Below are positions 7,173-53,414 of a stretch of DNA of 64,000 nt, one piece after another. The notes beneath the pieces were generated by a model that saw only the letters and a list, made by a program, of their open reading frames with translations, was not told where the DNA came from and searched no databases. Made by a program: the position numbers and the translations under genes. The first letter of the stretch is position 1, and every line of letters starts with the position of its first letter. Source of the DNA: Aliiglaciecola lipolytica (lineage in GTDB: Bacteria > Pseudomonadota > Gammaproteobacteria > Enterobacterales > Alteromonadaceae); NCBI RefSeq assembly GCF_018860635.1, contig NZ_JAHKPT010000021.1, positions 218,674 to 282,673 of the forward strand. The letters run 5' to 3'.

Positions 7173-9071
7173 ATGAACATTCGATATTTTACAAAAGGTC
7201 TGTTTTTTCTGGCAATCGGTGTTGGGTTACAAGCATGTGGCGCTGACAAAACTCCGATGTCAGAATCAAGCAATGATCAGACTGCTGCTGAGCAACAATC
7301 AAAAGCACCCAACATTGTGCTGATGATGACAGATGATCAAGGTTTTGGCGATTTGAGTCTTAATCACAACCCAGTGATACAAACCCCGAATATTCAAACT
7401 TTGGCTAATCAGTCTGTTAGTTTTGAAAACTTTCATGTTGACCCAACCTGTTCCCCAACTCGCTCCGCATTGCTGACTGGCAAACACTCGATGAGAGCTG
7501 GTGTTTGGCATACCGTGATGGGACGTTCATTTTTAGCATCAGAACATGTAACGATTGCAGAGATACTGGCTGATAACGGTTATGATACCGCGTTGTTTGG
7601 CAAGTGGCATTTAGGTGATAGCTATCCTTTTAGACCACAAGACCAAGGCTTTCAAACAAGCTTAATCCACGGTGGAGGCGGCGTAGGCCAATCGGGAGAT
7701 TATTGGGGCAATACCCAATTCGATGATTTCTATTTACGCAATGGTAAAGTTGAAAAATTCGATGGTTATGCCACTGATATTTGGTTTGACGAAGCAGAAC
7801 AGTTTATTCGTCAAAGCAGCCAGTCAGACAAGCCTTTCTTTGCTTACATAGCGACCAATGCACCGCACTCTCCTTACAGAGCCAAAGACAAAGATATTCA
7901 AGTTTACAGAGACTTAGGTTTACCGGAAGAAATAGCTCGTTTCTACGCAATGATTTCGGTTATCGATACCGGCGTAGGTAAAATTAGAAACCTATTAGAT
8001 GAGCTAAACATTACAGACAATACTATTTTTATTTTTATGACCGACAACGGAAGTTCGTTCACGCCAGCTCGTATCGGCAAGAATAATAAAACCATCCATG
8101 CTCTAACCGATGAAATTAGTCAGCAAGTTGGTCAAGAATGGGTATTCAATGGTGGTTTACGCGGTTATAAGTCTGAGGTTTATGAAGGCGGTCACAAAGT
8201 CCCATTTTACATTCATTATCCCAATGGCGGAATTGATGAAGCTCGAAAAGTTGATACGCTAGCCGCGCATTTCGACTTGATGCCAACCCTTATGGAGCTG
8301 GCCGGTATTGATGCCTCAGAAGCATCTGACATTGACGGTGTAAGTCTGGTTCCCGTGCTAGTAGATGATGGAGCACTTGAATCACGTAAAATAGTAGTAA
8401 CCAACCAACGGGTTGATCAACCTAGAATCGGACGTCCGTCTGTGGTCATGGATGGTAATTGGCGTTTTGTTTCAGAGCTAGATAAAAACACTGAAGAGTT
8501 ATATGACTTAGCATCTGATCCGTCTCAGCAAGTGAATTTAATTAATGATAACCCGCAAAAAGCTGAAGAGCTTCGTCAAGCTTTACGGGATTGGTGGCAA
8601 GATGTATCAAAAGATGTAGGCCCAAGAGTAAGACCCATTGTTGGTAACCCAATCGAAAACCCGGTAAGGCTTAATGCCAACGATTGGATGGAAGCTGAGT
8701 CTACTAACGTTATTGCATGGTATCCTGGCTTTAAAACCTTGTTCTTAAAAGAAAAGAAAGAAGGTTGGATTACCCAAGTTGAAAAATTCAAAAGTTTACC
8801 TTGGCACGTTGAGGTAGATAATACAGGTACTTATCAAATCTCTTTGTACTTTCATGACAAACCTGCTCAACAGCCGGTAAATCGGAAAAAAGCATTTTTG
8901 AAATTAGATGGTGTAGTTTATGAGACCGAATTGGATAAAGGAGCTGCAGGTGCTCAGTTCACACTACCTTTAGAAAAAGGTCCTAAAGCTATTGAAGGCT
9001 GGTTTGCTGATGGCAAAGACGATCTCGAAAGTCACGTACCTGCTTTCTACGCCTATATCGAAATTCTATAG
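7173..9071 (+). CDS. S1-family sulfatase, lipoprotein, with C-terminal beta-sandwich extension
   Basis: A 632-residue sulfatase that hydrolyses sulfate esters using a formylglycine made from C93 (CSPTR, 93-97). The N-terminal metal pair is D54/D55, and GKWHLG (143-148), NAPHSP and MTDNGS supply further active-site residues. A lipobox LQAC puts the lipidated Cys at position 22, with G at +2, so an outer-membrane lipoprotein is expected. After the catalytic domain there is an extension of about 120 residues rich in aromatic and beta-strand patterns (about 505-632), possibly a carbohydrate-binding sandwich. The closest relative in the window by eye is the sulfatase at 30946 (shared HTxxxR and HGxGGxGQ segments). 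Sulfate position specificity is unknown. Confidence 0.93.
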   Translation: MNIRYFTKGLFFLAIGVGLQACGADKTPMSESSNDQTAAEQQSKAPNIVLMMTDDQGFGDLSLNHNPVIQTPNIQTLANQSVSFENFHVDPTCSPTRSALLTGKHSMRAGVWHTVMGRSFLASEHVTIAEILADNGYDTALFGKWHLGDSYPFRPQDQGFQTSLIHGGGGVGQSGDYWGNTQFDDFYLRNGKVEKFDGYATDIWFDEAEQFIRQSSQSDKPFFAYIATNAPHSPYRAKDKDIQVYRDLGLPEEIARFYAMISVIDTGVGKIRNLLDELNITDNTIFIFMTDNGSSFTPARIGKNNKTIHALTDEISQQVGQEWVFNGGLRGYKSEVYEGGHKVPFYIHYPNGGIDEARKVDTLAAHFDLMPTLMELAGIDASEASDIDGVSLVPVLVDDGALESRKIVVTNQRVDQPRIGRPSVVMDGNWRFVSELDKNTEELYDLASDPSQQVNLINDNPQKAEELRQALRDWWQDVSKDVGPRVRPIVGNPIENPVRLNANDWMEAESTNVIAWYPGFKTLFLKEKKEGWITQVEKFKSLPWHVEVDNTGTYQISLYFHDKPAQQPVNRKKAFLKLDGVVYETELDKGAAGAQFTLPLEKGPKAIEGWFADGKDDLESHVPAFYAYIEIL

Positions 9072-9077
9072 TTGAGA

Positions 9078-9120
9078 CGTTAAATTGCTTCAGTTCACCA
9101 TGAATTGGAGCAATTTAACG
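9078..9120 (+). terminator. Hairpin after sulfatase
   Basis: A 12-bp perfect inverted repeat CGTTAAATTGCT / AGCAATTTAACG (9078-9089, 9109-9120) lies 7 bp after the sulfatase stop. No strong T-run follows, so it could be a weak terminator or a transcript-end stabiliser. Confidence 0.5.
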
Positions 9121-9166: not shown

Positions 9167-10711
9167 ATGGTGTTTAACAAGCTTATTCAAAGGTTAACCT
9201 TTCTTACATTCTGCTTTCCATATACATGCACTTTCGCTCAACAAGCGTTTCAAGAAAGCTTGCAAGTTGGGTCAATTTTCCAACCTCATATGGTATTACA
9301 GCGCGATTTACCTGTAACAATCTGGGGGCAAGAAACAGCCGGTAGTCAAATAACGGTATCTTTTGCAAATCAAATCCAAACCACTATTACCAACGAACAG
9401 GGGAGCTGGAGCCTACAACTTGCCCCCCTTAAAGGCAGCTACTCGCCTGAGAATATGACGATTTTGTCGAGTAATAACCAGAAAATAGTGCTTGCTGATA
9501 TTTTGGTAGGTGAGGTATGGATTTGTGCAGGCCAATCTAATATGGATATGGCCATTGGGAGGGTTAAGGATATACAAGTTCTCTCCAAATAGGCGAAGCA
9601 CATTCGTAGTTTGACCGTTGCTCACAACGTCGCCTTAACTGAACAGAAAAGCATGCAGGCTAACTGGCAAACAAGCTTACCTGATAGTGCTGTCGCATTT
9701 TCTTTTGCTTATTATTTGCAGCAGCGTGCAGATGTTCCGGTAGGCATTATTTTAAGTGCATGGGGCAGTTCATCTATAGAAGCTTGGATGCCTCGTGATC
9801 TAACCAAGGAATTAGCATATTTCAACACGATTATGCAGGAGTTTGATGCCGATGCAGACCGCATCGCGAAAATTAACCGAATATTATCGGGACCATTACC
9901 TTGGACACGAATAGATGATGTTTATTTACGTCGTCAACCCAACATATTGTTTAATGCAATGATGAATCCTCTTGTGCCCTATACGGTACGAGGTCTCGTC
10001 TGGTATCAAGGTGAACGAAACACTCAAAGCATGCACGGTTTGGTAAAAGACCCTTGGTATAAAAACAATTCTGGTATGTTGAAATATAAAGACGCCTTAC
10101 AAGCTTGGATAAAACGCTATCGTCAACAATGGGATAATAGCGACATGCATTTTATGCTGGTCATGTTGCCTCGATTTAATGCTTTGCTGAACACTAGCCC
10201 CACTAAAGAGGCTAGACATCCAAATGCACACTCATGGGCGTGGATGCGAGAAGCCCAATTAGCGGCGCAAAGTATGAAAAATGTGGCGGTTATTAATACA
10301 ATTGATCTTGGGCATCCCACGAATATTCATCCACTGGACAAATTACCCATAGGCCAGCGTTTAGCAAATGCAGCGGCGCGAAACACCTTGCATCAAACCG
10401 TTGAGGCACAAGGACCAGTTTTGGCAAAGGCTGTGATTTCTGGCTCAAATGTTAGATTGTTTTTCGAACACGTAGAAGGGTTGCGCACCGTAAATTCAAA
10501 GGCTCCGGCTGAATTTTGGTTGGCAAACGATAGCCAAAAGTGGGTAAAGGATGATGCTAAAATCCGTCAAAATACCGTGCTTCTGAGCAGCCCAAGTCTC
10601 CAAAACCCGCTTTATGTTCGTTACGCATTTTCAGGCTTTCCTCAGGTTAATTTGATTAACGCTGCGGGTCTGCCTGCTCAACCTTTTCGTACCGATCACT
10701 TTGAACCTTAA
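9167..10711 (+). pseudogene. Sialate O-acetylesterase-like (SGNH) esterase interrupted by in-frame amber codon
   Basis: Read through, this is a 514-codon carbohydrate acetylesterase of the SASA type: a signal peptide, an N-terminal beta domain (LQRDLPVTIWG), the Ser-nucleophile motif AGQSNM (S124), VGIILSAWGSSSIEAWM, LVWYQGERN, and a C-terminal Asp/His block IDLGHPTNIH. A TAG at 9590-9592 (codon 142) stops it. The downstream part stays in the same frame and is otherwise intact up to TAA at 10711. A single CAG-to-TAG change would explain it, so the lesion looks recent. The stop separates the nucleophile from the catalytic Asp/His, so neither half should be active alone. Its lost or conditional role would be removing O-acetyl groups from fucan. 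A TTG at 9611 could start the second part but has no convincing ribosome site. Confidence 0.85.
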
Positions 10712-10779: not shown

Positions 10780-12363
10780 TTATTTATTCAGGCGCGGGGC
10801 AGACCAGCCTTGGCTTTTTATTTGTTCTAAAAGCTGTCGCATCTGACGGGCTTTTTCTGGGTGTTTTTCAATCAAGTTGAAACGTTGCTCACGGTCATTT
10901 TTCATATCGAATAATTGACCCTTTTGGTTGTCATCAGTTTGATAACCATGTCTGTTTTGCCAATCTGCATAATTGAACCTTGTCAAATTACCATTTTGAT
11001 TGCCCGAAGGAGCATCAATTAAAGTCCAATCATCGCTACGAATAGCAAATTTACCAGCAGTTGTGTTGTGAACCATAGCACGGCGAGGGCTGTTTGAAGA
11101 TTCACCCGTCCAAAGTTCCAATAGGTTGAAAGAGTCGTGTGCAGCATCATTTGGTAATTTAAATTCGATTATTTCAGCAATGGTTGCCATTAAATCAATT
11201 TGCGACACTAACTCATCGGTTTGACTGTTTGCCTGCACATGGTTTGGCCAGCGCACAATCATAGGTACTCTATGTCCGCCTTCATAAGTATCTCGTTTGA
11301 GACCGCGAAAAGGGTAGGAGGACCAGTGATCAAACTTTTGGTCTCTAAGGTAAGCATAATTTTCAGGTCCGTTGTCGGAGCTAAAAATGATGATGGTGTT
11401 GTCCGCAATACCAGCCTGGTCAATTGCAGCGAGAAGTTTACCAATTGAGTCATCTGTTTCTACTATTAGATCACCGTAAGGTCCCGCCTTTGAAGTATTA
11501 TCAAATTCGTCATTAGGAATGATCGGCGCATGGGGAGAAGGGTATGCAAAGTATAAAAAGAAGGGTTGTTCCTGTTTAGATTTTTGAGTAATAAAATCGA
11601 TGCCTTTTTGGGTCGTCGTGGGGATGTTCTCGTAAGGATTCCACCCTGTCACCATCGGACCTTCTCGATAACGCATTGTGCCTTCTTTATTTTTCCATAG
11701 CGTACCATCCACCATAGTGTCGGGTATTTGTGTTACGCGATCATTTTCGATCCAAACATAAGGCGGAAAGTTAATAACGTTGTCACCAAAATAATAGTCG
11801 AAACCATGAGCTGTTGGCCCATTCTCGATAGCTTTATTCCAATCAAAGTCGTTAGGTCCCACTGCGCCCGACGGCGCATCTTGTTTTCTTATAGAGTCCC
11901 AATCCCAACCTAGATGCCATTTTCCTATTGCGGCTGTTGTATATCCTTTTTGTTGCAGCATTTCTGGCAGAGTAAGTTGTTCCGCTTCAAAAACTGAATC
12001 TCCAAATGCCTTTACAATATCGTGGAATTTACGCCAATGGTATTGTCCTGTAAGCAATGCATATCGAGAAGGAGAACATATACCTGATGAGGAATGAGCA
12101 TCAGTAAAACTTAGCCCCTGCGAAGCTAATTTATCTAAATTAGGTGTGGGTATTTTAGATCTTGAACTAAAACTGCCCAAATCGCCGGCGCCCAGATCAT
12201 CTGCATATAAAATAACAATATTGGGTAATTGCTTAGCAACAGGCTTTTTCTCGATTGTACTGTTACTCTGTGAGCATGCTGTGGTTAATGCGACAGCGAG
12301 CATGAGTAGTACCTTCACTACAAACCGCCCATGTACTTTCCTATTCTTGCATTTAAAAATCAT
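10780..12363 (-). CDS. S1-family sulfatase, lipoprotein
   Basis: A sulfatase of about 527 residues from the ATG at 12363. This start is preferred because AGGA lies upstream of it; an ATG 18 bp earlier has none. The lipobox LTTAC gives a lipidated Cys at 30, then metal ligands DD at 55-56 and the formylglycine motif CSPSR (C96), continuing YALLTGQ. GKWHLG, the SPHAP histidine motif and SSDNGP follow. It groups by eye with the sulfatases at 19398, 47633 and 51753, which share the (Y)xLxTGxYxWR segment. It stands alone on the minus strand, divergent from the EF-hand gene. Substrate position is unknown. Confidence 0.92.
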   Translation of the reverse strand: MIFKCKNRKVHGRFVVKVLLMLAVALTTACSQSNSTIEKKPVAKQLPNIVILYADDLGAGDLGSFSSRSKIPTPNLDKLASQGLSFTDAHSSSGICSPSRYALLTGQYHWRKFHDIVKAFGDSVFEAEQLTLPEMLQQKGYTTAAIGKWHLGWDWDSIRKQDAPSGAVGPNDFDWNKAIENGPTAHGFDYYFGDNVINFPPYVWIENDRVTQIPDTMVDGTLWKNKEGTMRYREGPMVTGWNPYENIPTTTQKGIDFITQKSKQEQPFFLYFAYPSPHAPIIPNDEFDNTSKAGPYGDLIVETDDSIGKLLAAIDQAGIADNTIIIFSSDNGPENYAYLRDQKFDHWSSYPFRGLKRDTYEGGHRVPMIVRWPNHVQANSQTDELVSQIDLMATIAEIIEFKLPNDAAHDSFNLLELWTGESSNSPRRAMVHNTTAGKFAIRSDDWTLIDAPSGNQNGNLTRFNYADWQNRHGYQTDDNQKGQLFDMKNDREQRFNLIEKHPEKARQMRQLLEQIKSQGWSAPRLNK

Positions 12364-12851
12364 ATTAAGAGAGTCCTGCATGTTTACATTTAAATTTATA
12401 TTTAAATTTATATTTAAATGTAAATTTTATTGATGAACAAAAAGATAGCATCTTTAGTTGTTTTTAACAAAGATTCAACAGCTACAAATCTCCCCAGATT
12501 ATCAATTTATGAATAGGATAAAAATACGTTATTCCTAATGAATACTGGTTGAATCTGAGCGTTCTACCTAAAACTTCAATATCTTTATTGTATTTATATA
12601 TAAAATAAGTTTTTACATGCGAGATTTTATTGTGTTAATCTAATGTTATCAAAACTTTTCTAGCTTTAATGCAAGAAGTTGTTGCAAGAGAAGTCGAAAG
12701 TGAAATATAAGAATTTATATATTCGCATATTTGACCTTTGAATCTACATTGAGCTTGGCAGTTTAGATGTACTTAAGAAGTTATATGGTGACAGGTGAAT
12801 TGTCACCAATTTGAAGGTTCCACTAAAAAGTTAATTAAAGAGGATGTCACC
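12364..12851. promoter_or_regulatory. Divergent AT-rich promoter region with partial locus element
   Basis: This spacer of about 490 bp lies between the minus-strand sulfatase and the EF-hand gene. It holds a 12-bp AT-rich tandem/palindromic repeat (see 12382-12424). Around 12594-12625 it holds ATATATAAAATAAG plus downstream T-rich sequence that lines up with the first half of the locus-wide element. AAAGAGGATG before 12852 is the EF-hand ribosome site. I see no other gene. Confidence 0.45.
12382..12424. repeat. AT-only tandem and near-palindromic repeat
   Basis: A 12-bp unit of the form ATTTATATTTAA repeats about three times. The whole block begins with TTTACATTT and ends with AAATGTAAA, so it is also nearly palindromic. 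It sits directly upstream of the minus-strand sulfatase start, in what should be its 5' untranslated region or core promoter. Confidence 0.7.
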
Positions 12852-13121
12852 ATGAAAAATGTTTTAAGAACAGCGTTATCAAGCGTACTTGTAACGGCAC
12901 TATTATTTGCTATTTCTACAGAGTCACAGGCTAAGAAAAGTAGGTTTAGTAAGATCGATGCTAATTCTGACGGTAAATTGTCAGTAGAAGAGTTCTCGGC
13001 GAATATCAAGAAACCTAAAAATGGACCTAAGCGTTTTGCGCGATTAGACATTGATGAAGATGGGTTCCTAAGCTCAGAAGAGTTTGCAGCGCAATCGAAG
13101 AAAAAGAATAAAAATAAGTAG
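12852..13121 (+). CDS. Small exported EF-hand calcium-binding protein
   Basis: An 89-residue protein starting at the ATG after AAAGAGGA. A signal peptide (VLVTALLFAISTESQA) is followed by two canonical EF-hand loops, DANSDGKLSVEEF and DIDEDGFLSSEEF, and a Lys/Asn-rich tail. It is expected to bind calcium in the periplasm. Small EF-hand proteins are common beside secreted hydrolases and sulfatases in marine bacteria, whose sulfatases use Ca2+; a direct partner role is only inferred. A strong terminator follows, so it is at least partly a separate transcript from the sulfatase at 13216. Confidence 0.85.
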   Translation: MKNVLRTALSSVLVTALLFAISTESQAKKSRFSKIDANSDGKLSVEEFSANIKKPKNGPKRFARLDIDEDGFLSSEEFAAQSKKKNKNK

Positions 13122-13215: not shown

Positions 13216-14619
13216 GTGATATTTAATAAAATAAAACTCTTAGTTGCGGTTGTTGGGACCTGTATCGCATCAGCATCTTTTGCTGCTAATAGCATGGAAT
13301 CGGCGACTCAGGCCGAAAAACCAAATATTATTTTTATTTTCGCAGATGATCTAGGTTGGGGGGATATCAGCAAACATGGGCATCCAGACATTCGTACACC
13401 AAATATCGATCGATTAGCCAATGAAGGTTCTGAGTTTTATCAATTTAGTGTGTCTAATCCTGTCTGTTCTCCTAGTCGAGCCGCGGTTTTAACCGGTCAA
13501 TATCCTGCAAGAAACAGCGTACATCGTCACTTTGCTACCTTCGAACACCACGATAATTTTGCGATGCCTGATTGGCTTGATAAAAGCGTAGTCACTATGC
13601 CTAGAGTTCTGCAACAGGCGGGCTATAAAACTGCGCACTTCGGTAAGTGGCATTTGACCAATCGTAATATTAAAGATGCACCACTACCTACTGAGTATGG
13701 ATACGACGAAGCAGCCGTATTTAATGGTCCAGGCCCACAAACCGATACTTTTAAATTATATGATGATGCGACGGATTTCATTAAGCGCAATAAAGACGTA
13801 CCTTTCTTTATTAATTTATGGATCCATGAAACACATACGCCTCATTATCCGCCACATGATTCAATGGCAAAATACACCCATTTGAACGAGCAAGATCAAG
13901 TTTATGCAGCTGTCGTTGATGGCGCTGACCAGCGGATTGGAAAAATACTGAACTTGTTAGACGAATTAGATTTAGCAGAAAATACATTAATAGTATTTTC
14001 TAGTGATAATGGCCCAGAAGTTACTGGGTCGAAGAGTAAGCACTTTCACCATATAGATCCCGACGGAAAAGTAGAAGGTATTGATCCCTTAGGCACCTAT
14101 TTCAGTGTTGGTAAAACCGCAGGTTTGCGCGGACAAAAGCGCGACACTTATGAAGGCGGTTTACGCGTACCATTCTTAGTACGCTGGCCCGCTAACGTGC
14201 CCGCAGGGCGAGTCGATACTGAAACTGTCGTAACTGCTGTTGACTTATTGCCCACTTTTGCAGAAGTTGCCGGTGCAAAATTACCTCGAGGTTACCAACC
14301 CGATGGACAGAGCATTCTGCCACTTCTAAAAGGTGCTACCTTGACCCGTAAAAAACCTTTGTACTGGCAGTGGCAATATGGCAAAAAATCAGGCAAAAAA
14401 CCAATGCTAGCGGTGCGTGAAGGTCCTTGGAAGTTATTCTATTTTCAACATGAAAGCCGCGTCGAATTATACAATGTTATGAGAGATCGCGCTGAAACGA
14501 TGAATGTTGCAAATCAATATCCGGAAATCGTTAAAAAATTAAAAGGCCTGGCAATAGCGTGGAATGAAACATTGCCAGTATCGCCTAATCCGTCGACATT
14601 CTCGGCACTAAGACAGTAA
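13216..14619 (+). CDS. S1-family sulfatase, exported
   Basis: A 467-residue sulfatase with a GTG start, supported by AGGGGA seven bases upstream. The signal peptide ends near SFA-AN (23). Metal ligands are DD 44-45, the formylglycine motif CSPSR starts at C84, GKWHLTN follows, the substrate-side motif is HETHTPHYP, and SSDNGPEVTG is the C-terminal metal site. The sulfatase at 46143 is a clear paralog (same GKWHLTN, PLPTEYGYDE and HETHTPHYP blocks). It is followed 131 bp later by the GH29 fucosidase and then another sulfatase, suggesting joint desulfation and fucose release. Confidence 0.93.
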   Translation: MIFNKIKLLVAVVGTCIASASFAANSMESATQAEKPNIIFIFADDLGWGDISKHGHPDIRTPNIDRLANEGSEFYQFSVSNPVCSPSRAAVLTGQYPARNSVHRHFATFEHHDNFAMPDWLDKSVVTMPRVLQQAGYKTAHFGKWHLTNRNIKDAPLPTEYGYDEAAVFNGPGPQTDTFKLYDDATDFIKRNKDVPFFINLWIHETHTPHYPPHDSMAKYTHLNEQDQVYAAVVDGADQRIGKILNLLDELDLAENTLIVFSSDNGPEVTGSKSKHFHHIDPDGKVEGIDPLGTYFSVGKTAGLRGQKRDTYEGGLRVPFLVRWPANVPAGRVDTETVVTAVDLLPTFAEVAGAKLPRGYQPDGQSILPLLKGATLTRKKPLYWQWQYGKKSGKKPMLAVREGPWKLFYFQHESRVELYNVMRDRAETMNVANQYPEIVKKLKGLAIAWNETLPVSPNPSTFSALRQ

Positions 14620-14750: not shown

Positions 14751-16652
14751 ATGAAATTAATTAGACAAAAGCTCGCAGTTTCAATCGCCAGCGCATTACT
14801 TCTTTCTAGCGTGATGTCGGTCTCAGTTTATGCACAAGACAACAACGTTGAAGCTAATCAATCCATGGATGAATTGTGGGGCGACAGTGCAATCGACAAG
14901 GCTAAACATGCCAATGCTGAGCGCGGTGAATGGTTCGCACAAGACAAATATTCTATGTTTATTCACTGGGGATTATTTTCAATTCCAGCGGGTGAGTGGA
15001 AAGGAAAAACCTACTATGGAATTTCTGAATGGCTTATGTCGGGCCGAGTTGCTGATATTCCTAAAGAAGAATATAAAGAATTAGCAAAACAATTTAATCC
15101 CACTGAGTTCGACGCAAAAGCGATTGTGCAGCTTGCAGTTGATGCTGGCATGAAAAACATTGTGATTACCGCTAAGCACCATGAAGGCTTTGCAATGTAT
15201 CACTCTAAAAGCAGCACTTATGATATTGAAGATGCAAGTCCGTATAAACGCGATCCTTTAAAAGAATTGGCTGACGCTTGTGCAGAAGCTGGTATAGGTT
15301 TGGGCTTTTATTATTCGCAAATGCAGGATTGGTACGAACAAGGTAGCGCGAGTATTCCTTGGTCATCGGAAAAGCAAGAAGGCGATTTCACAGAGTATTT
15401 TGAGCGTAAAGTCATTCCTCAAGTAACTGAATTATTGACTGAATACGGTCCCATTCGCACAGTTTGGTTCGACACCCCTGGCGATATGACGAAGGAGCAA
15501 TCGCAAAAACTAGTTGATTTAACGCGCAGTTTGCAACCCAAGGCAATGATAAACAGCCGCATAGGTAATGGTGTAGGCGACTTTTCTACGCTAGGTGATC
15601 ACAGTTTGTCTCAGGTAAATCACCCTGGTCTTTGGGAAACCATTGATACAACTAACAACAGTTGGGGGGATGCTTGGTACGACAAAAACTGGAAGTCGGG
15701 TACAGAAATTTTACACCGCTTAATTTCAACAGTCGCCCGTGGTGGTAATTACATGTTGAATATTGGGCCTAAAGGTAATGGCGAAGTACCAGAAATGGCA
15801 GCTAAAGGCCTACGTAGAGCAGGAAAATGGTTGGAGCATAGTGGTGAAACGATTTATGGCGCTAAAGGTTCTCCGTGGGGCAGAGCACAAGCTTGGGGAG
15901 ATATTACAGTTAAAGGCAACAAGCTATATTTGCATGTTTTTGACTGGCCTGAAAATGATCAAATCCACTTAGCTGGATTAAAAAACCAAATTACTTCGGC
16001 TCGCTTATTAAATGCTGAAGAACTTGGATTTATGGCAGGCTTATTCGGTAGCGATGAAGGTGAGGTAACCTATTCTAGGCAGGATAATGGTTGGACAAGC
16101 TTCACATTAGCAATGGATAAACCGGATTCTCTCGTTCCTGTTATTGTTGTTGAATTAGACGGTGAACCTGAAGTCGATACCACTATTGGTATCGATCCAA
16201 GCATCAAAACCACTATTAATTCGGTTTTTGCTAACTGTGAAGGTTGTGTGAAAAAAGAAATTCGCTGGATGCAGAAGTTTGGTGATTGGAATTATGCAAA
16301 CAACTTATTGAATTGGACAGATAATGGCAAAGGTGAGTGGAAAGTTGATGTGGCTGAGCCGGGCGATTACTTTATAGAGGTTGAGTATTCAGCCGATGAC
16401 GTAGTTGATTTTAGTGAATGGGTATTTTCATTTAACGGTGAAATTTTGATGATGCAAGCACTTGATACTGGTGAGCGTAAAAACTCTAAACGTCAAGGAA
16501 AAGGCAAAACATTATATCGCTACCGCACGGACGAAGTGGGCGTAGTAACGCTTCAACAAGGTAAACAATCAATTACTGTTACACCTAAAGGTAAGGTTAT
16601 TGGTGGTGGCATTAACCTTCGAGCTATTCATTTAACTCCAATTGTAGAATAA
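14751..16652 (+). CDS. GH29 alpha-L-fucosidase, exported, with C-terminal beta domain
   Basis: A 633-residue retaining alpha-L-fucosidase. The signal peptide ends at VYA-QD (28). The TIM barrel carries MFIHWGLFSIPAGEW, the two-His segment TAKHHEGFAMY (140-150), FYYSQMQDWY, and the nucleophile D241 in VWFDTPG. The fucosidase beta domain follows, then a further beta-rich segment (about 520-633) with a CxxC (NCEGCV) that may bind polysaccharide. AGGAA five bases before the ATG supports the start. The sulfatase at 16662 begins nine bases after its stop, so the two are surely co-transcribed. It should release terminal fucose once sulfate has been removed. Confidence 0.93.
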   Translation: MKLIRQKLAVSIASALLLSSVMSVSVYAQDNNVEANQSMDELWGDSAIDKAKHANAERGEWFAQDKYSMFIHWGLFSIPAGEWKGKTYYGISEWLMSGRVADIPKEEYKELAKQFNPTEFDAKAIVQLAVDAGMKNIVITAKHHEGFAMYHSKSSTYDIEDASPYKRDPLKELADACAEAGIGLGFYYSQMQDWYEQGSASIPWSSEKQEGDFTEYFERKVIPQVTELLTEYGPIRTVWFDTPGDMTKEQSQKLVDLTRSLQPKAMINSRIGNGVGDFSTLGDHSLSQVNHPGLWETIDTTNNSWGDAWYDKNWKSGTEILHRLISTVARGGNYMLNIGPKGNGEVPEMAAKGLRRAGKWLEHSGETIYGAKGSPWGRAQAWGDITVKGNKLYLHVFDWPENDQIHLAGLKNQITSARLLNAEELGFMAGLFGSDEGEVTYSRQDNGWTSFTLAMDKPDSLVPVIVVELDGEPEVDTTIGIDPSIKTTINSVFANCEGCVKKEIRWMQKFGDWNYANNLLNWTDNGKGEWKVDVAEPGDYFIEVEYSADDVVDFSEWVFSFNGEILMMQALDTGERKNSKRQGKGKTLYRYRTDEVGVVTLQQGKQSITVTPKGKVIGGGINLRAIHLTPIVE

Positions 16653-18545: not shown

Positions 18546-18569
18546 GTGTAATTTGGTTCGCGCTTAATG

Positions 18570-18603
18570 AAGGTGACGCACGCTAATAAAAGTGCGTCAC
18601 CTT
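18570..18603 (+). terminator. Rho-independent terminator
   Basis: A 12-bp perfect stem AAGGTGACGCAC / GTGCGTCACCTT (18570-18581, 18592-18603) with a 10-nt loop lies 24 bp after the sulfatase stop. It marks the end of the 13216-18545 run. Confidence 0.8.
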
Positions 18604-19339: not shown

Positions 19340-19362
19340 ACACGGCTTTTTAAACGCCGTGT
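19340..19362. terminator. Terminator downstream of minus-strand sulfatase
   Basis: Stem ACACGGC / GCCGTGT (19340-19346, 19356-19362) has an A/T-rich loop and lies about 35 bp beyond the stop of the minus-strand sulfatase. Confidence 0.65.
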
Positions 19363-21020: not shown

Positions 21021-21148
21021 AGTTCGTTTACCTAATTCGTTGTAATCATATTTTCTATAAGATGCATTTACCACCGAAAATAATCTTGTTGCTACATCAT
21101 GTTTTATTGGGGGGAGAATTTTTGTTTATTTGCATAGAAAAATTCCGC

Positions 21149-22648: not shown

Positions 22649-22722
22649 ATTGTTCCTTGCGACTAGCAATTTAAATAATTGTTAATAAGAAGATGCATTT
22701 TTGTTGTAGTATAGCCTGTTTT

Positions 22723-22756: not shown

Positions 22757-22814
22757 GTTTTATTTTGTCTAATATTTAGTAAATTGAAACAGCATAGGGG
22801 CTTAAGGAATGAAT

Positions 22815-30847: not shown

Positions 30848-30945
30848 GTGTTGGCTAGGATATTCCAAATCTACGCTCAAAATGCATGTTTTTAACTAGA
30901 TTTTTATCGATTGATTGCGACACTAAACTTAGAAGGCGGATTATT

Positions 30946-46142: not shown

Positions 46143-47630
46143 ATGGATAAACATAACTTTATTAGCGTCGCCGAAAGTCTCAACCTAAGCAGCTATGCAG
46201 TGTCTAGAATATTACAGCAGGTTAGAATTGTTGGATTAGCGAGCCTAATCTGTTTGGGACTGGCGGCCTGCGGTTCCACTAAATCGTCTAACAATAACGC
46301 TCATTCTTCAGACAAGCCCTTAGTAAAGCAACCCAACATAATTTATATCTTTGCTGATGATTGGGGCTGGGGAGATCTGAGTGTTCATGGTAATAAGCAA
46401 GTTAACACGCCCAATATCGATAAATTGGCCGCAGAGGGAACTGATTTTTACCAATTTTCAGTGAGTAGCCCAGTGTGCTCTCCTAGTCGCGCTGCTGTAA
46501 TGACCGGGCAGTTCCCCTCAAGAAACAACATAAATCAACATTTTGCGACCATTAAACATCACGAGCGAGCTGGCATGCCAGATTGGCTTGACGCAAAAGC
46601 TGCAATGCTGCCACGTGTCCTTAAAGATGCGGGGTATGCCACGGGACATTTTGGTAAATGGCATTTAACCAATGTACAAATTGAAGATGCGCCACTGCCA
46701 ACTGAATACGGCTATGACGAATACGGTGCGTTTAATTTACCTGGTTACAATATGCCGCCATCCGAGACTGCTAACCAAGCAATTGATTTTATTAAGCGCC
46801 ATAAAGATCAACCGTTTTTTGTCAACTTGTGGATCCATGAGACTCATACGCCACATTATCCTGAACCTGCATTAATGAAGGAGTACGGGCATTTAAACGA
46901 ACAAGAAATGCTTTACTCAGCCATTATTGCAGCTGGAGATCGCGATGTTGGGCGAATCATGGCGCTGCTTAAAGAGCTGAACATTGACGACAATACTTTG
47001 GTTATTTTTAGCTCAGACAATGGTCCTGAAGTAACCGGCGAGCGAAAGTTTATGGATGATGATTCAACTGGTCCAGGCTTTGGTACCTTCTATTCAGTGG
47101 GTAAAACACTAGGATTAAAAGGCGCTAAACGTTCACTATATGCTGGTGGAGTGCGCGTACCTTTTATTGCCCGTTGGCCTGGCGTTGTACCTGCTGGGGC
47201 TATCGATAAAAACTCGGTTTTAAATGCCGTTGATTTACTCCCCACTTTTGCTGATCTTGCTGGCGCCACTTTGCCTGCAGAGTATGTGTCTGACGGACAA
47301 AGCATTCGTTTAGCCCTTGCTGGCGAAACCTTTGAGCGAAGTAAAACCTTGTATTGGGTTTGGCCTCCGGGTAAGGGAAGTAAAAGCACTGCCACACCGA
47401 ATTGGCCAAATTACGGCATACTGAAAGGGGATTGGAAACTGTTAGTCAACGATACCCTTAAAATAGAAGAGCTGTACCAAGTAAAAGAAGATTGGTACGA
47501 GGAAAATAACGTTGCTGCCCAGCACCCAGAGGTTGTAAAAGCCCTTCGCGGTGAAATGTTGCGGTTACAGCAACAGTTCCCTGCAACTATCCCTGAGCAT
47601 GTAAAGTCTAAATTACGGGATCAAAACTAA
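46143..47630 (+). CDS. S1-family sulfatase, lipoprotein
   Basis: A 495-residue sulfatase with an unusually long N-terminal region before the lipobox LAAC (C43). Metal ligands are DD 72-73, formylglycine is C112 in CSPSR, then GKWHLTN, HETHTPHYP and SSDNGPEVTG. It is a paralog of the sulfatase at 13216, which has a normal signal peptide instead. This is the first gene of a run of plus-strand genes to the right edge, with the next sulfatase starting two bases after its stop. Confidence 0.92.
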   Translation: MDKHNFISVAESLNLSSYAVSRILQQVRIVGLASLICLGLAACGSTKSSNNNAHSSDKPLVKQPNIIYIFADDWGWGDLSVHGNKQVNTPNIDKLAAEGTDFYQFSVSSPVCSPSRAAVMTGQFPSRNNINQHFATIKHHERAGMPDWLDAKAAMLPRVLKDAGYATGHFGKWHLTNVQIEDAPLPTEYGYDEYGAFNLPGYNMPPSETANQAIDFIKRHKDQPFFVNLWIHETHTPHYPEPALMKEYGHLNEQEMLYSAIIAAGDRDVGRIMALLKELNIDDNTLVIFSSDNGPEVTGERKFMDDDSTGPGFGTFYSVGKTLGLKGAKRSLYAGGVRVPFIARWPGVVPAGAIDKNSVLNAVDLLPTFADLAGATLPAEYVSDGQSIRLALAGETFERSKTLYWVWPPGKGSKSTATPNWPNYGILKGDWKLLVNDTLKIEELYQVKEDWYEENNVAAQHPEVVKALRGEMLRLQQQFPATIPEHVKSKLRDQN

Positions 47631-47632: not shown

Positions 47633-49102
47633 ATGCGTATTAATAAACATAGAGCACGATTGATCAGTTTTACTGCCTCTGTATTGCTTGGCGTGATTTA
47701 CAGTGACGCTTATGCCGATGAAACAGCAAAACAACCGATAGAAAATGCACAACCTAATATTGTCATTATCTTTGCTGATGATATGGGATATGGCGATATT
47801 CAGGCGTATAACCCTGCAAGTAAAATTGCCACACCTAATCTTAATAAAATGGCTGAACAAGGCGTGTCTTTTACCGACGCACATTCATCCTCTGCAGTAT
47901 GTACCCCTTCTAGATATTCGTTGTTAACAGGTCGATACGCATGGCGAACGCATTTAAAACGTGGCGTGTTAAGAGGACACTCACCAGCGCTTATAGAGTC
48001 GGACCGAACCACAATTGCATCGATGTTAAAGTCACAAGGTTACAACACCATAGCGGTGGGGAAATGGCATGTGGGCATCGGCTATGCCGAGACTGACTAT
48101 TGGAGTCAGTTGACTCGAGGTCCCAATTCAGTGGGTTTTGACTATTTTTATGGGATAGCAGCTTCGCTTGATATGGAACCTTATGTGTTTATCGAAAATG
48201 AGACCTTAGCGACACCATTAACTGGAAAAATTGTGGAGGCGAGTCAATTTCGTCGAAATGACGGTGCGGGGTTTTGGCGCAAAGGATTGATTGGCGAAGG
48301 TTTTGATCATCAAAACGTTTTGCCAACCCTTACCCAAAAAGCATTAGAGCAAATTCAATTGGCGTCACAATCGGCCGACAAAAAACCTTTCTTTTTATAT
48401 TATGCGTTACCAGCGCCACACACTCCTTGGTTACCCAGCAAAGCGTCGCGAGGTAAAAGCGCTGCAGGTCATTATGGTGATTTTGTGATGGATGTGGATA
48501 ATTTGGTAGGACAGGTGAATGAGCAACTCAAGCACTTGGGCATTGCCGATAATACCATCGTTATTTATTCCTCAGACAACGGCGCCCATTGGACCGACAA
48601 TGACAAGCAAAAATACCATCACTACGCCAATGGCAAGCTTCGTGGTCAAAAAGCAGATATCCATGAAGGTGGCCATAGAGTGCCTTTGATCATCAACTGG
48701 CCTCACAAATTTGTGGCAGGCAAAGTCAGTTCTTCATTAGTGGTACTAAATGATTTGTTGGCTACAGTGGCATCTATTACAGGTGCAGATGTTGAACAGC
48801 TCGATAATTTAGACAGTGTCGATTTTTCTTCTGAATTAACCTCAACACAGACCACAAATTATCAGCGAGGTGCCGTTATTCATCACTCTCACAGAGGCTT
48901 GTTTGCCATTCGAAAAGGAGATTGGAAACTCATTGAAGGTGAGGGCAGTGGTGGTTTCACTCGCGTTAAGCCGGATGGACAAGCAATGCAGTTATACAAC
49001 CTAAAAGAAGATCCAGCTGAAACCACTAATCTATTTGAAAAGCGCCCTGATATTGCCAAGCAATTACTTGTTGAGCTTCAGGAAATTCGTAGTAGAAGGT
49101 AG
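47633..49102 (+). CDS. S1-family sulfatase, exported
   Basis: A 489-residue sulfatase. The signal peptide ends near AYA-DE (28), metal ligands are DD 49-50, formylglycine is C90 in CTPSR followed by YSLLTGRYAWR, and GKWHVGIGY, PAPHTPW and SSDNGAHWT are present. It starts two bases after the previous sulfatase, so they form one transcript with likely coupled translation. By eye it is closest to 19398 and 51753. The GH141-type gene follows after about 100 bp. Confidence 0.92.
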   Translation: MRINKHRARLISFTASVLLGVIYSDAYADETAKQPIENAQPNIVIIFADDMGYGDIQAYNPASKIATPNLNKMAEQGVSFTDAHSSSAVCTPSRYSLLTGRYAWRTHLKRGVLRGHSPALIESDRTTIASMLKSQGYNTIAVGKWHVGIGYAETDYWSQLTRGPNSVGFDYFYGIAASLDMEPYVFIENETLATPLTGKIVEASQFRRNDGAGFWRKGLIGEGFDHQNVLPTLTQKALEQIQLASQSADKKPFFLYYALPAPHTPWLPSKASRGKSAAGHYGDFVMDVDNLVGQVNEQLKHLGIADNTIVIYSSDNGAHWTDNDKQKYHHYANGKLRGQKADIHEGGHRVPLIINWPHKFVAGKVSSSLVVLNDLLATVASITGADVEQLDNLDSVDFSSELTSTQTTNYQRGAVIHHSHRGLFAIRKGDWKLIEGEGSGGFTRVKPDGQAMQLYNLKEDPAETTNLFEKRPDIAKQLLVELQEIRSRR

Positions 49103-49204: not shown

Positions 49205-51637
49205 ATGAACAAAAAAGATGCCACTTTATTATGCTTGTCCTTGTTAATAGCGCTCACAGGTTGTAAATACGCGGCAACGCCAGAAACGTCTAGCCAACAG
49301 ACGAAGGCTCAGCAAACAGCAGTATTTTCCAGTTTTAAGGTTACACACAATGGTGAGCGCATTATTTTAGTCGCTCACCCAAGCGGGGATAGTCTGATAG
49401 ATGCACTTTCTCACGCTAAAAAACTGTTAGCACAAAAAAAGTCGGTCGAAATTCAGTTAACTGAAGGTACATATCATCTGACACAAGGGATTATTTTAGG
49501 CCCAGAATTTTCTGGAACCGAAAAAAGCCCATTTGTTATCAAACCGGTAAATAATCATCAGGTAGTATTGAGCGGCGCAACACCAATAAAGCCCAAGTGG
49601 CAACGTCATAACGATAGGCTATTAAAAACACAGGTTGATGCAAAAGAATTCGACTTGCTTTTCATCGATGGTAAACAACAAGTTAGAGCTCGTTATCCTA
49701 ATTTTGATAAAGATATTGCTATATTTAACGGATTTGCGACTGATGCGATTGCCCGTGAACGTGTTGCAACATGGAAAAATCCTGAGGGCGGTTTTGTGCA
49801 TGCTTTACACCGTTCTCGCTGGGGCGGCATGCACTATAAAATTACCGGTGTAGACGAAAGTGGCGAGGTGATTTTAGAAGGTGGTTTCCCAAATAATCGA
49901 ACTTCTGGTTTGCATAACATGTACCGCTATGTAGAAAACGTTTTCGAAGAGCTTGATGCTCCAAACGAATGGTTTTTTGATAAACAAACCAAAACCTTAT
50001 ATTTTTATCCTTCCCAAGACTTCGATATAAAAAATAGCAAAGTTACCGTATCTCAATCGGCACATCTTATTGAACTGCGGGGCAGCATTAATCAGCCGGT
50101 TAAAAATATCCATATACAAGGTATTACCTTTACCCAAACTAAAAAGACATTCATGCAAACCAAAGAGCCGTTGCAGCGAAGCGATTGGACGATTTATCGC
50201 GGTGGTGCTGTTGTGCTAGAAGGCACTGAAAATTGCCAAATCAGCAATAACGTGTTTACCGAGTTAGGGGGGAATGGCGTTTTTGTCAGTAACTATAATC
50301 GTAATGTGACTATTGCTAGTAATGAGATTTTTAATATTGGGGCCAGTGCTATCGCCTTTGTTGGCAGCCCAGATGCTTTACGTTCGCCAAGTTTTCAATA
50401 TCGCACATATGTAGAACTTGATGATATGGATATGCAAGCTGGGCCCAAAACAGCTAATTACCCGGCTAACTCAAAAGCGCACGATAATTTGATCCACCAC
50501 ATAGGACAAATTGAAAAACAAGTAGCTGGCGTGCAAATTCAAATGGCGGCAGATATTACCGTTAGCCACAATTCTATTTATCATGTTCCCCGTGCCGGTA
50601 TTAACATTGGTGAGGGGGCTTGGGGTGGGCACATCATTGAATACAACGACGTATTTGATACTGTGTTAGAAACCAGTGACCATGGCGCATTTAATTCCTG
50701 GGGACGGGATCGTTTTTGGCATCCGAATCGAAACGTTTTGTTCGATATCGCCAAAACACATCCTGATTTGTACAAACTCGATGTGTTAAAGCCCATTGTC
50801 ATTCGGAATAATCGTTTTCAATGTGATCATGGCTGGGATATAGATTTGGATGACGGTTCTTCCCATTATCAAATTTATAATAATCTGGCATTAAGCGGTG
50901 GCATTAAATTGCGTGAGGGTTTTAATCGGGTCGTTGAGAACAATATTGTGATCAATAATTCTCTGCATCCACATGTGTGGTTTGAAAATAGTAAAGATGT
51001 ATTTCGTCATAATATTGTCTTTGGCTCCTACAAACCGGCGCTAATGAAAATAGAAAAGTGGGGGCAAGAAATTGACTACAACCTATTTAGTACAGAACAA
51101 CACTTAAAGGCGTCGCAAGCATTTAATACTGACCAACACTCTATTTATGGCGACCCGCAGTTCGTCGACCCACAATCTGGCAACTATCACGTTGGTAAAG
51201 CATCACCTGCCCATAAAATTGGTTTTAAAAACTTTGCGATGGATAAATTTGGCGTGTTAAGCAAGCACTTAAAAGAAAAAGCCGAGCAACCCAGCATTCC
51301 CGAATTAACAAATAAAGACGCGAAAGGCCGACACGATCATTTAATTAGCTTATTTGGTGCGCAATTTAATTCGGTTACAACACTAGGTGAGCAGTCTGCC
51401 TTGGGTATTCCTGAAATAGCAGGCGCATTTGTTGAAACCATTAAAAGTGGCATTGCGCAAAATGCAGGTTTGCGTGTTGGGGACGTCGTACTTTACGCCA
51501 TTGTTAATGATAAGAAACAGAAAATAGTCAGCAATACCGATTTACGTGATGCATACGATCAAACGGAATGGCAAGAAGGCCTTAAATTGATCATTGTAAG
51601 AAATCAAAAAGAGCAAATGATTTGGTTAACTTATTAA
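49205..51637 (+). CDS. GH141-type right-handed beta-helix enzyme with C-terminal PDZ domain, lipoprotein
   Basis: An 810-residue lipoprotein (lipobox LTGC, C20). An N-terminal segment of about 65-265 contains RARYPNFD, GGFVHALHRSRWGG and NEWFFDKQTKTLYFYP, then parallel beta-helix repeats (about 290-640: ITFTQT, ISNNVFTELGGNGVFVS, HNLIHHIGQ, IEYNDVFDT). This arrangement matches the GH141 family, whose characterised members include alpha-L-fucosidase and which recurs in fucoidan-degrading bacteria. The last 85 residues (GIPEIAGAFVETIKSG, AQNAGLRVGDVVL) are a PDZ domain. It is placed between two sulfatases and upstream of GH95. Activity on fucan is inferred from company. Confidence 0.85.
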   Translation: MNKKDATLLCLSLLIALTGCKYAATPETSSQQTKAQQTAVFSSFKVTHNGERIILVAHPSGDSLIDALSHAKKLLAQKKSVEIQLTEGTYHLTQGIILGPEFSGTEKSPFVIKPVNNHQVVLSGATPIKPKWQRHNDRLLKTQVDAKEFDLLFIDGKQQVRARYPNFDKDIAIFNGFATDAIARERVATWKNPEGGFVHALHRSRWGGMHYKITGVDESGEVILEGGFPNNRTSGLHNMYRYVENVFEELDAPNEWFFDKQTKTLYFYPSQDFDIKNSKVTVSQSAHLIELRGSINQPVKNIHIQGITFTQTKKTFMQTKEPLQRSDWTIYRGGAVVLEGTENCQISNNVFTELGGNGVFVSNYNRNVTIASNEIFNIGASAIAFVGSPDALRSPSFQYRTYVELDDMDMQAGPKTANYPANSKAHDNLIHHIGQIEKQVAGVQIQMAADITVSHNSIYHVPRAGINIGEGAWGGHIIEYNDVFDTVLETSDHGAFNSWGRDRFWHPNRNVLFDIAKTHPDLYKLDVLKPIVIRNNRFQCDHGWDIDLDDGSSHYQIYNNLALSGGIKLREGFNRVVENNIVINNSLHPHVWFENSKDVFRHNIVFGSYKPALMKIEKWGQEIDYNLFSTEQHLKASQAFNTDQHSIYGDPQFVDPQSGNYHVGKASPAHKIGFKNFAMDKFGVLSKHLKEKAEQPSIPELTNKDAKGRHDHLISLFGAQFNSVTTLGEQSALGIPEIAGAFVETIKSGIAQNAGLRVGDVVLYAIVNDKKQKIVSNTDLRDAYDQTEWQEGLKLIIVRNQKEQMIWLTY

Positions 51638-51752
51638 GTAAATAAAGTACCTATTTGTCGCTATTTGAAATGACTTGTTAGCTTGACTGTTCTTCAGGTT
51701 GTGAGGGGCAGTTTTGATAAAACGAATGGGCAATTAAACATACGGATAAACA

Positions 51753-53414
51753 ATGAAAATATTTGCAAGAACATCATTATTGAAAAACGTCACATTACTT
51801 TGCGTGATATTCACCTTGTCTCCCTCAGTATCTGCAGACACTAGCAAACCTAACATTGTTTATATTTTGGCTGACGATATGGGCTATGGAGATATTCAAG
51901 AACTTGCTCCCCATGGAAAAATAAAGACCAAAAACCTTGATAGAATTGCTCAAGAAGGCATCGCATTTTCGCAAGCCTATACAGGTTCATCTATTTGTAC
52001 TCCTACACGCTATGGTCTTATGACGGGCCGATATCCTTGGCGTGAAAACGTTAATCTTGCCGCTAATTATGGCTCTCGCATTATGCCTGAAGGGCAAGAA
52101 ACCGTTGCTACCTTTTTACGTAGCCAAGGTTATAAAACATTGATGGTGGGTAAATGGCACCTTGGCACAAGTTGGACGATGAAAGATGGCTCAGTGGTGA
52201 AGTCACGACAAAGTATGAGCCATAAAGCGACGCTTAGCGAAGATAAAAGCATTAATTTTAGTGCGCCTTTTTATGGCGGTCCAACCGACCATGGATTCGA
52301 TTCTTGGTTCGGTATTGCGGGGAGTTTAGATTTTGCACCATACGTTTATCTTGTCGATAATAAAGCAAGTAAAATACCTACAGAGCACCTTGTTGGTAAG
52401 AATCGATTTGGTCATCGCACCGGCTTTGCTGATCCTGATCTTGAGCCCTCTCAAGTTCTGGGGGAATTTACAAAACGTACCGTAGCGGCAATTGAACAAC
52501 AAAATAAAGATGAGCCTTTCTTTTTATATATGCCTCTTAATGCACCGCATTCGCCTGTTGTTCCTTCGAAAGCATTTCAAGGGCTGAGCAAAATTGGCCC
52601 GAATGCTGACTACCGTATGGAAATTGACTGGACCGTTGGGCAAGTGCTCGATGCTTTAGACAGAAAAGGTTTATCAGAGAACACGCTAGTTATTTTCACT
52701 GCCGATAATGGCTCTTACCCGGGCGCAACAATAGAACTTAAAGAGGCAGGGCACGACACTCACGACGGACGACGTGGCGAAAAAGCCACTTTGTTCGAGG
52801 GCGGTCATCGCGTGCCGTTTTTAGTCAAGTGGCCTAAAGGCATTAAAGGTGAATTGAATCGTAGAGAAAACGACAATATTACCTTAGAGGATTTTATTGC
52901 CACCACCGCTGATATTCTCGGTCAACCAACACCTGATTATGCTGTTGATAGTGTAAGTTTTTTACCTCAATTACAAGGTAAGGAAGCGCCTGTTGGGCAA
53001 CGAGAGGTTATTATCAGTAGTTTACATAACATTTTAATTGCACGTGATGGTGAATGGAAACTCATCTATAAATCTTTAGCAGAAATCGCAGAGATTAGAC
53101 AACGAAATCAAATAAACGCTAAAAAGCTAAAAGAAGGCTACTTTACGCCCAAAAGTAACGAACCATGGTACCAACATGTAACCCTTTTTAACCTAAAAGA
53201 CGACCAAGGTGAAACGGTTAATATTGCCCGACAAAACCCAGAAATAGTTGCACGCCTCCACAGCGCTGTTCAGAAATCCATAAAGGATCAACGAACCAAC
53301 AAGGGCGAACCCAAACCAAAAATTAATTGGCAGGTTAATTTCGGCATTGATGCCGATCAACAACGTCGGCTAGCCATACTTGATAGCTTACAATCTGCGA
53401 AGGTTAGTTACTGA
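51753..53414 (+). CDS. S1-family sulfatase, exported
   Basis: A 553-residue sulfatase. The signal peptide ends near VSA-DT (28), metal ligands are DD 41-42, formylglycine is C82 in CTPTR followed by YGLMTGRYPWR, then GKWHLGTSW, NAPHSPVVPS and TADNGSYPG. It has an insert about residues 145-190 and a basic C-terminal tail compared with 47633. The GH95 gene begins two bases after its TGA, so desulfation and fucose removal are tied at the translational level. Confidence 0.92.
   Translation: MKIFARTSLLKNVTLLCVIFTLSPSVSADTSKPNIVYILADDMGYGDIQELAPHGKIKTKNLDRIAQEGIAFSQAYTGSSICTPTRYGLMTGRYPWRENVNLAANYGSRIMPEGQETVATFLRSQGYKTLMVGKWHLGTSWTMKDGSVVKSRQSMSHKATLSEDKSINFSAPFYGGPTDHGFDSWFGIAGSLDFAPYVYLVDNKASKIPTEHLVGKNRFGHRTGFADPDLEPSQVLGEFTKRTVAAIEQQNKDEPFFLYMPLNAPHSPVVPSKAFQGLSKIGPNADYRMEIDWTVGQVLDALDRKGLSENTLVIFTADNGSYPGATIELKEAGHDTHDGRRGEKATLFEGGHRVPFLVKWPKGIKGELNRRENDNITLEDFIATTADILGQPTPDYAVDSVSFLPQLQGKEAPVGQREVIISSLHNILIARDGEWKLIYKSLAEIAEIRQRNQINAKKLKEGYFTPKSNEPWYQHVTLFNLKDDQGETVNIARQNPEIVARLHSAVQKSIKDQRTNKGEPKPKINWQVNFGIDADQQRRLAILDSLQSAKVSY

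Follow-up and report, generated by a model that had tools for sequence, protein, structure and literature searches.

The window analysed here, a 64,000-nucleotide stretch of the Aliiglaciecola lipolytica genome (5.03 Mb in 36 contigs; window at 218,674–282,673 of contig C1), holds a dense cluster of sulfatase genes interspersed with genes of fucosidase type. Whole-genome searching with the PF00884 profile gave 25 matches, 15 of them inside the window, spanning positions 7173–53414. All 15 carry the formylglycine motif C-x-P-x-R (as CSPTR, CSPSR, CAPSR, CTPTR, CSPAR, CTPSR or CAPTR), the N-terminal DD pair, and GK-x-H (GKWH in 14, GKNH in one), in agreement with an earlier reading of the sequence (the original prediction), which had proposed 15 S1 sulfatases with C-x-P-x-R and DD in this interval. 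Three more lie to the right of the window, at 64043 (plus strand), 71759 and 75293 (both minus strand), giving 18 in about 70 kb; motif (C/S-x-P/A-x-R) and fold profile occur together in 15/15 of the former and 3/3 of the latter. Not every PF00884 match is a formylglycine sulfatase, the 25 genome-wide including an open reading frame (ORF) on contig C27 that lacks the motif. Genes are named below by the lower coordinate in Table 1.

The density had been called extreme, and the counts agree. The expected number of PF00884 genes per 64 kb is 0.32, and the probability of finding at least 15 of the 25 in one such span is about 1e-22. Taking from each genome only the contigs richest in PF00884 matches, the densest 64-kb span contains 16 in the analysed genome, 16 in another genome of the same species (G002), 14 in Pseudoalteromonas sp. 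A601, and 6, 6 and 4 in the genus members G008, G006 and G001. Three further genomes of the genus have totals of 0, 3 and 4, and an incomplete one has a single match, below the cut-off. Within the Verrucomicrobiota, the densest 64 kb on one contig of a metagenome-assembled genome (MAG) contains at least 10 such genes, while the 885-kb contig C2 of genome G836 has 83 sulfatases by a stricter motif count, with a maximum of 12 per 64 kb. The sulfatase-dense locus is confirmed as real, and is larger than first stated: it extends over about 88 kb, from about -2200 to 85,700 in window coordinates.

The minus-strand gene 43200, absent from the original prediction, encodes a divergent GH107-type endo-fucanase. 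The N-terminal 400 residues match the PDB entries 6M8N (3.5e-10) and 8BPD (1e-7); the former is P5AFcnA, a GH107 enzyme of gammaproteobacterial source, and the latter is presumably Mef1 (Mef2 is also a GH107 member). Published catalytic motifs are ERFDGLVDGYWL-D-NS and MDFTNG-H-VTP for P5AFcnA (PMC10619423, Table 2), and QRYGDLIDAWCF-D-SA and DDYTFG-H-PFG for MfFcnA (PMC10619423). The 43200 protein has LRYGNTIDGWWF-D-HS and DDYTFG-H-PTP, which places the predicted nucleophile at D226 and the acid/base at H273; its segments LRYGNTIDGWWFDHS and DDYTFGHPTP agree with both published Asp/His motifs, and both residues are kept in the G002 and A601 copies. The two laminin-G-like domains lie at the C-terminus. 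With the GH107 domain as query, matches were found in 4 of 295 genomes of the family: the analysed genome, G002, G057 (two copies) and G291 (partial). A601, which also carries a GH107-type gene, is outside this sample. G057, from another genus of the same family, has on its contig C7 a smaller fucan-type locus that combines the two GH107-like genes with genes of the fucose pathway.

The remaining genes within the window are given in Table 1. Beyond its left edge are an FAH-family hydrolase, an SDR dehydrogenase and the remainder of the amidohydrolase, followed by housekeeping genes of the purL, guaA and guaB types. To the right, besides the sulfatases, the GH29 and GH95-type genes each have a third member, and the GHL15, beta-helix (GH141-like, with PDZ) and IclR regulator genes each have a second one. 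An MFS transporter and a RhaM-type mutarotase are also encoded there, and the locus is bordered by a leukotriene-A4-hydrolase-like peptidase. In total the locus has three GH29-type, three GH95-type and two GH141-like genes. At least five sulfatase genes adjoin or overlap genes of fucosidase type, as had been claimed: 13216 and 16662 flank the GH29 gene 14751, 30886 overlaps the GH29 gene 32420, 47633 precedes the GH141-like gene 49205, and 51753 precedes the GH95 gene 53417. Gene packing is tight apart from two gaps of about 850 bases each (18546–19397 and 24195–25032) without an ORF of at least 100 amino acids. The counterpart of the split esterase 9167 is a single open frame in G002 and two overlapping ORFs in A601. 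The 61503 protein is conserved in G002 (81%), A601 (72%) and G836 (36%); its AlphaFold model, from a single sequence, reached a pLDDT of 33.

Table 1. Genes and other features of the window, in window coordinates.
Feature	Position	Strand	Evidence
Amidohydrolase, putative L-fuconolactonase, N-terminal part; runs left to -476	1..372	-	PF04909 4e-8 (window part), 9e-36 (outer part); role inferred from context
Aldo/keto reductase, putative L-fucose dehydrogenase	350..1420	-	PF00248 1e-49; role inferred
FMN (flavin mononucleotide)-dependent alpha-hydroxy-acid dehydrogenase, putative L-lactate dehydrogenase	1425..2576	-	PF01070 3.5e-116; role inferred
Enolase-superfamily protein, putative L-fuconate dehydratase	2576..3922	-	PF13378 2e-57, PF02746; role inferred
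TonB-dependent receptor	4346..7111	+	TIGR01782 3e-161, PF00593/PF07715
S1-type sulfatase with C-terminal extension	7173..9071	+	PF00884, motifs, 6PRM
SASA-type carbohydrate esterase, split by in-frame stop 9590-9592	9167..10711	+	PF03629 3e-14 (second part); first part without family
S1-type sulfatase	10780..12381	-	PF00884, motifs, S1_15-labelled chains
Small EF-hand protein	12795..13121	+	PF13202 2.6e-11
S1-type sulfatase	13216..14619	+	PF00884, motifs, structure match
GH29-type alpha-L-fucosidase	14751..16652	+	PF01120 3e-75
S1-type sulfatase, five-copy group of the locus	16662..18545	+	PF00884, motifs, tree
S1-type sulfatase, clade of 10780	19398..21074	-	PF00884, motifs, tree
S1-type sulfatase, isolated in tree	21149..22669	-	PF00884, motifs, tree
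S1-type sulfatase; 69% to G836 C2 copy	22809..24194	+	PF00884, motifs
S1-type sulfatase, duplicate of 16662	25033..26895	+	Motifs, 78% amino acid identity
S1-type sulfatase; with Verrucomicrobiota copies in tree (94/90, not starred)	26984..28825	+	Motifs, tree
S1-type sulfatase	28963..30612	+	Motifs, 6HR5
S1-type sulfatase, 11-base overlap with next GH29; 65% to G836 C2 copy	30886..32430	+	Motifs
GH29-type alpha-L-fucosidase	32420..33991	+	PF01120 1.5e-67, PF16757
IclR-type regulator	34064..34846	-	PF01614, PF09339
Second TonB-dependent receptor	35176..37947	+	PF00593 8e-28, PF07715
Putative lipoprotein, VCBS-type repeat, possible glycan binding (inferred)	38015..39724	+	TIGR01965 8e-15; lipobox pattern; no Pfam family over cut-off
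S1-type sulfatase, five-copy group	40058..41950	+	PF00884, motifs, tree
GH107-type endo-fucanase, two laminin-G-like domains	43200..45644	-	6M8N, 8BPD, motifs, PF13385
S1-type sulfatase, pairs with 13216	46143..47630	+	PF00884, motifs, tree
S1-type sulfatase, clade of 10780	47633..49102	+	PF00884, motifs, tree
Beta-helix protein, putative GH141 (fucosidase or endo-fucanase)	49205..51637	+	PF13229 2.8e-16; GH141 name inferred from beta-helix
S1-type sulfatase, clade of 10780	51753..53414	+	PF00884, motifs, tree
GH95 alpha-L-fucosidase/galactosidase; 63% to G836 C2 copy	53417..56038	+	PF22124 2e-108
GH43/GH117-like protein, weak family match; 74% to G836 C2 copy	56258..57283	+	PF04616 1e-5 (below cut-off); 3KST 7e-5, 3P2N 0.001
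GHL15 putative glycoside hydrolase	57287..58480	+	PF14885 1e-32
GH95-type hydrolase; 63% to G836 C2 copy	58840..61305	+	PF22124 9e-26; 8ZBV 3e-17
839-amino-acid protein, lipobox pattern, runs past window end	61503..64022	+	No Pfam or NCBIfam match

Judged from its gene content, the 88-kb block is very probably a locus for the degradation of fucoidan (sulfated fucan), with an enzyme toolkit shared with Verrucomicrobiota and at least two genes gained by lateral transfer. A sulfated fucan had been named as substrate in the original prediction, and this is supported by GH29 and GH95-type genes, a putative L-fucose oxidation pathway and, above all, the GH107-type gene. The families of the fucose pathway are accompanied by the MFS permease and the mutarotase, the same type of locus is present in G002 and A601, and the GH16-linked sulfatases of this genome sit on a separate contig, C35.

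The sulfatases themselves are diverse. At 35% identity the 18 proteins form nine clusters, which the tree merges into six clades (some modestly supported), in keeping with the several subfamilies originally foreseen. SulfAtlas labels were taken from the closest PDB chains, with 6 of the 15 window sulfatases queried singly. The closest chains are labelled S1_15 for 10780; for 16662 the nearest structure is an S1_16 kappa-carrageenan sulfatase, for 7173 the carrageenan sulfatase 6PRM (listed as S1_19 in PMC9096561), for 13216 a GalNAc-6-sulfatase, for 22809 the arylsulfatase 3ED4, and for 28963 the ulvan-pathway sulfatase P36_S1_25 (6HR5). This covers part of the subfamily check that had been proposed at the outset, and nearest structures by themselves do not single out fucan. 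Subfamilies S1_17 and S1_25 each contain a fucoidan enzyme alongside a carrageenan or ulvan enzyme. The sulfatases taken alone are therefore compatible with fucan and no proof of it, and the argument for fucan rests on the GH107 gene and the fucosidases.

One of the flanking sulfatases adds to the case for fucan. In 71759 the GK-x-H motif is replaced by GKFG, a change of His to Gly; the KFG replacement is characteristic of the S1_25 homologues of SWF4, a fucoidan exo-3-sulfatase (PMC6315715). GKFG is also found in A601 and in four ORFs of G836 (a fifth G836 occurrence has a different context), while the His is retained in 28963 and 75293. The G002 orthologue of this S1_25-type gene (71759–73270) has an inner TGA.

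Three other substrates can be considered. The polymer might be another sulfated methyl-pentose polysaccharide (ulvan, rhamnan or a mixed diatom exopolysaccharide), with the fucosidase-like genes serving side chains, as the closeness of 28963 to P36_S1_25 and the RhaM family match of the mutarotase would allow; related enzymes serve fuconate and rhamnonate pathways alike. This is nevertheless improbable given the GH107-type gene with its conserved catalytic motifs and the three GH29 and three GH95-type genes, and Pfam scans of the non-sulfatase locus genes gave no rhamnosidase or ulvan lyase family (61503 and 38015 had no family over the cut-off). A galactan of carrageenan or agar type, with the fucosidase-type enzymes acting on L-galactose or galactose, would suit the carrageenan sulfatase structures nearest to 7173 and 16662 and the carrageenan enzyme within S1_17. 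It is the least credible of the three, since the locus genes scanned contain no GH16, the GH107-type gene is present, and GH16 occurs with sulfatases on the separate contig. That second polysaccharide locus (C35, 22000–52000) contains three PF00884 matches, two GH16 genes and one TonB receptor, and its substrate is probably a galactan. Finally, the fucan could be of animal (sea cucumber or sea urchin) rather than algal origin: a fucoidan-active Pseudoalteromonas sulfatase comes from a sea cucumber gut (PMC8484680), and fucoidanases vary in linkage preference (PMC9147238, PMC10619423). The esterase and the several sulfatase clades would better match a heterogeneous, acetylated algal fucoidan, and an animal fucan appears quite unlikely.

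For an algal fucoidan, the family roles suggest the following order of action. The secreted GH107 enzyme, perhaps together with GH141, would cut the fucan chain outside the cell; GH141 endo-fucanases have been reported (PMC12786026). The two TonB receptors would import the pieces, from which exo-sulfatases of several clades may remove sulfates singly, alternating with the GH29 and GH95 fucosidases, and the SASA-type esterase may strip acetyl groups. Oxidation of L-fucose would follow, through a dehydrogenase, a lactonase, a dehydratase and another dehydrogenase, with an FAH-type hydrolase yielding pyruvate and L-lactate, the latter being consumed by the FMN dehydrogenase. An FAH hydrolase and an FMN-dependent hydroxy-acid dehydrogenase fit the pathway branch that ends in these two products. 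Overall, the locus appears to join polysaccharide enzymes resembling those of Verrucomicrobiota to uptake, regulation and sugar catabolism of proteobacterial type.

The original prediction had noted a likeness to Verrucomicrobia, and this holds at the sequence level. Contig C2 of G836 carries homologues of the polysaccharide enzymes, with best matches mostly of 36–74%, and the 64043 sulfatase is 83% identical to a copy on that genome's contig C1. At 1e-10 the TonB receptors, regulators, permease, mutarotase and most fucose-pathway genes have no homologue in the parts of G836 that were read (most of its C1 lies outside them); two locus dehydrogenases have weak matches (27–28%). Queries with 16662 at 1e-60 matched 1 of 369 gammaproteobacterial genomes (its own) versus 8 of 194 Verrucomicrobiota genomes, the former sample evidently lacking G002 and A601, both of which carry the gene. 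With 64043, matches at 1e-100 occurred in 15 of 387 Verrucomicrobiota genomes (best 83–85%). Within the family, only 3 of 295 genomes matched at 1e-60: its own genome, G002 and G057, the last with a 42% relative. In the sulfatase tree, the three gammaproteobacterial copies of 64043 join G836 (100/100) and then G891 (100/96), inside further Verrucomicrobiota branches, and the five-copy group requires three changes between gammaproteobacterial and Verrucomicrobiota labels. This tree has 24 Verrucomicrobiota rows, from 30 listed matches with at most three candidates scored per genome, plus three from G836 regions, and omits the G002 copies of 16662 and 25033. The 56258 gene is missing in G002 and has no match in the A601 stretches read. 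Among 216 genomes of the bacterial family, 10 matched, its own included, and the relatives there reach 41% at best. In the tree of this gene, five Verrucomicrobiota rows share its clade with 100/100 support, and its immediate sister is placed with less certainty (80/82).

From these trees, 64043 and 56258 were likely acquired by lateral transfer from Verrucomicrobiota, although this donor is not proven because the trees contain no Bacteroidota. There might have been no such transfer, both groups having drawn on a shared third source such as Bacteroidota, where fucoidan loci with similar families are known (PMC6315715, PMC12786026), or the genes being old and lost in other gammaproteobacteria; the restriction of the trees to Verrucomicrobiota and Pseudomonadota leaves room for this. 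It is unlikely in view of the nesting of 64043 within Verrucomicrobiota branches and an identity of 83% between phyla. A single contig scan with 16662 gave A601 and Verrucomicrobiota only; it reaches none but close relatives, having missed ones at 52–59%. Among plasmid records, matches to 16662 were all under 35%.

Comparison with G002 shows a mosaic. Protein identity is 97–100% in the left arm (to 16,652) and 61–90% from 16,662 to 64,022 where a counterpart exists (the IclR regulator being 100%), a section in which genes have also moved. It is again 98–99% from 64,043 to 73,270 (the short ORF 65949 has no counterpart), mostly 78–85% from 73,414 to 82,529, and 96–100% beyond. This looks like the exchange of blocks inside one species. 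In the G002 stretch read there is no close counterpart of 21149, 30886, 49205, 53417, 56258 or 57287, and 53417 has no close homologue in the A601 stretches either. The neighbouring GH95 and GH43-like genes (53417–57283), matched in G836 and without close homologues in the G002 and A601 stretches read, are possibly a strain-specific insertion.

Several observations weigh against a fucoidan locus with Verrucomicrobiota-derived parts. The GH107 assignment of 43200 involves low identities (26–32% to the G057 copies, and 25% to a G836 C2 ORF, the aligned part unchecked) and weak PDB scores, an AlphaFold model of the domain with one homologue was too poor for a fold (pLDDT 34), and GH107 was the one endo-fucanase family examined. 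The nearest solved structures of several window sulfatases act on carrageenan or ulvan, the esterase gene is broken at its in-frame stop, and the trees sampled two phyla. Lastly, the FGE (PF03781) and anSME (TIGR03942) profiles had no match at 1e-3 in the analysed genome, which is rated 100% complete, yet is a draft in which stretches can be masked.

The control genomes put this last result into context: PF03781 matched 4 of 14 and TIGR03942 12 of 14, mostly weakly, and six anSME candidates were scored in the analysed genome. The lack of even weak anSME matches is odd, and could mean either that the gene is truly missing or that the search fell short. Regular expressions for FGE and anSME found nothing in the stretches read, nor in G836, and lacking a positive control carry no weight. 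In three stretches flanking other PF00884 genes, which together cover little of the genome, no ORF of at least 180 amino acids contains CxxxCxxC. Work on E. coli mutants has led to the proposal of a third sulfatase maturation system (cited in PMC6315715). It is conceivable, if rather doubtful, that the at least 18 Cys-type sulfatases, part of them Verrucomicrobiota-derived, are matured by that system without FGE or anSME; if so, this genome and its sister strains would offer a direct handle on it.

Fucoidan has been described as a long-term carbon store that is broken down slowly (PMC12786026), and Verrucomicrobiota as fucoidan specialists (PMC8857213). That so large a locus occurs in a gammaproteobacterium, and that at least two of its genes fall inside Verrucomicrobiota, suggests that fucoidan degradation is transferable between phyla, enzymes moving while uptake and sugar catabolism stay local. 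The 18 sulfatases in six clades would be a resource for assigning sulfate positions, and they pose a clear maturase question.

Precedents exist for fucoidan loci, for GH107 enzymes and for fucoidan-active Pseudoalteromonas; a description of the present locus was not found in searches of the open-licence PubMed Central (PMC) literature. Fucoidan loci were reportedly found in the verrucomicrobium Lentimonas sp. CC4 by Sichert in 2020. Related Verrucomicrobiota MAGs share many S1 sulfatases together with GH29, GH141 and PF03629 proteins (PMC8857213). In contrast to these, A. lipolytica combines TonB receptors and an oxidative fucose pathway in a single compact locus, and none of the locus genes scanned pointed to the microcompartments reported for Verrucomicrobiota (PMC8857213). 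The polysaccharide utilization locus of Wenyingzhuangia fucanilytica CZ1127 shares GH107, GH29, GH95, several S1 sulfatases and an S1_25 enzyme with KFG, and the strain also has GH141 enzymes (PMC6315715, PMC12786026). That locus is of the Bacteroidota type, whereas here no SusD family or SusC-SusD pair is present among the Pfam-scanned genes, 4346 being a TonB receptor of TIGR01782 type. Closer in taxonomy, P5AFcnA (6M8N) has its GH107 family in common with the 43200 protein, and endo-fucoidanase and sulfatase activities are known in Pseudoalteromonas, Psf1 being one such fucoidan enzyme. Pseudoalteromonas sp. MB47 has the S1_13 fucoidan sulfatase PsFucS1 and seven putative sulfatases (PMC8484680), compared with 18 in one locus here; the PsFucS1 structure, 7AJ0, is a distant match to 16662 and 13216. 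Pseudoalteromonas carrageenovora 9T grows on brown-algal fucoidans, and the authors of that study found no GH107 gene in it (PMC6262041), whereas in A. lipolytica a GH107-type gene lies within the locus, amid the sulfatases.

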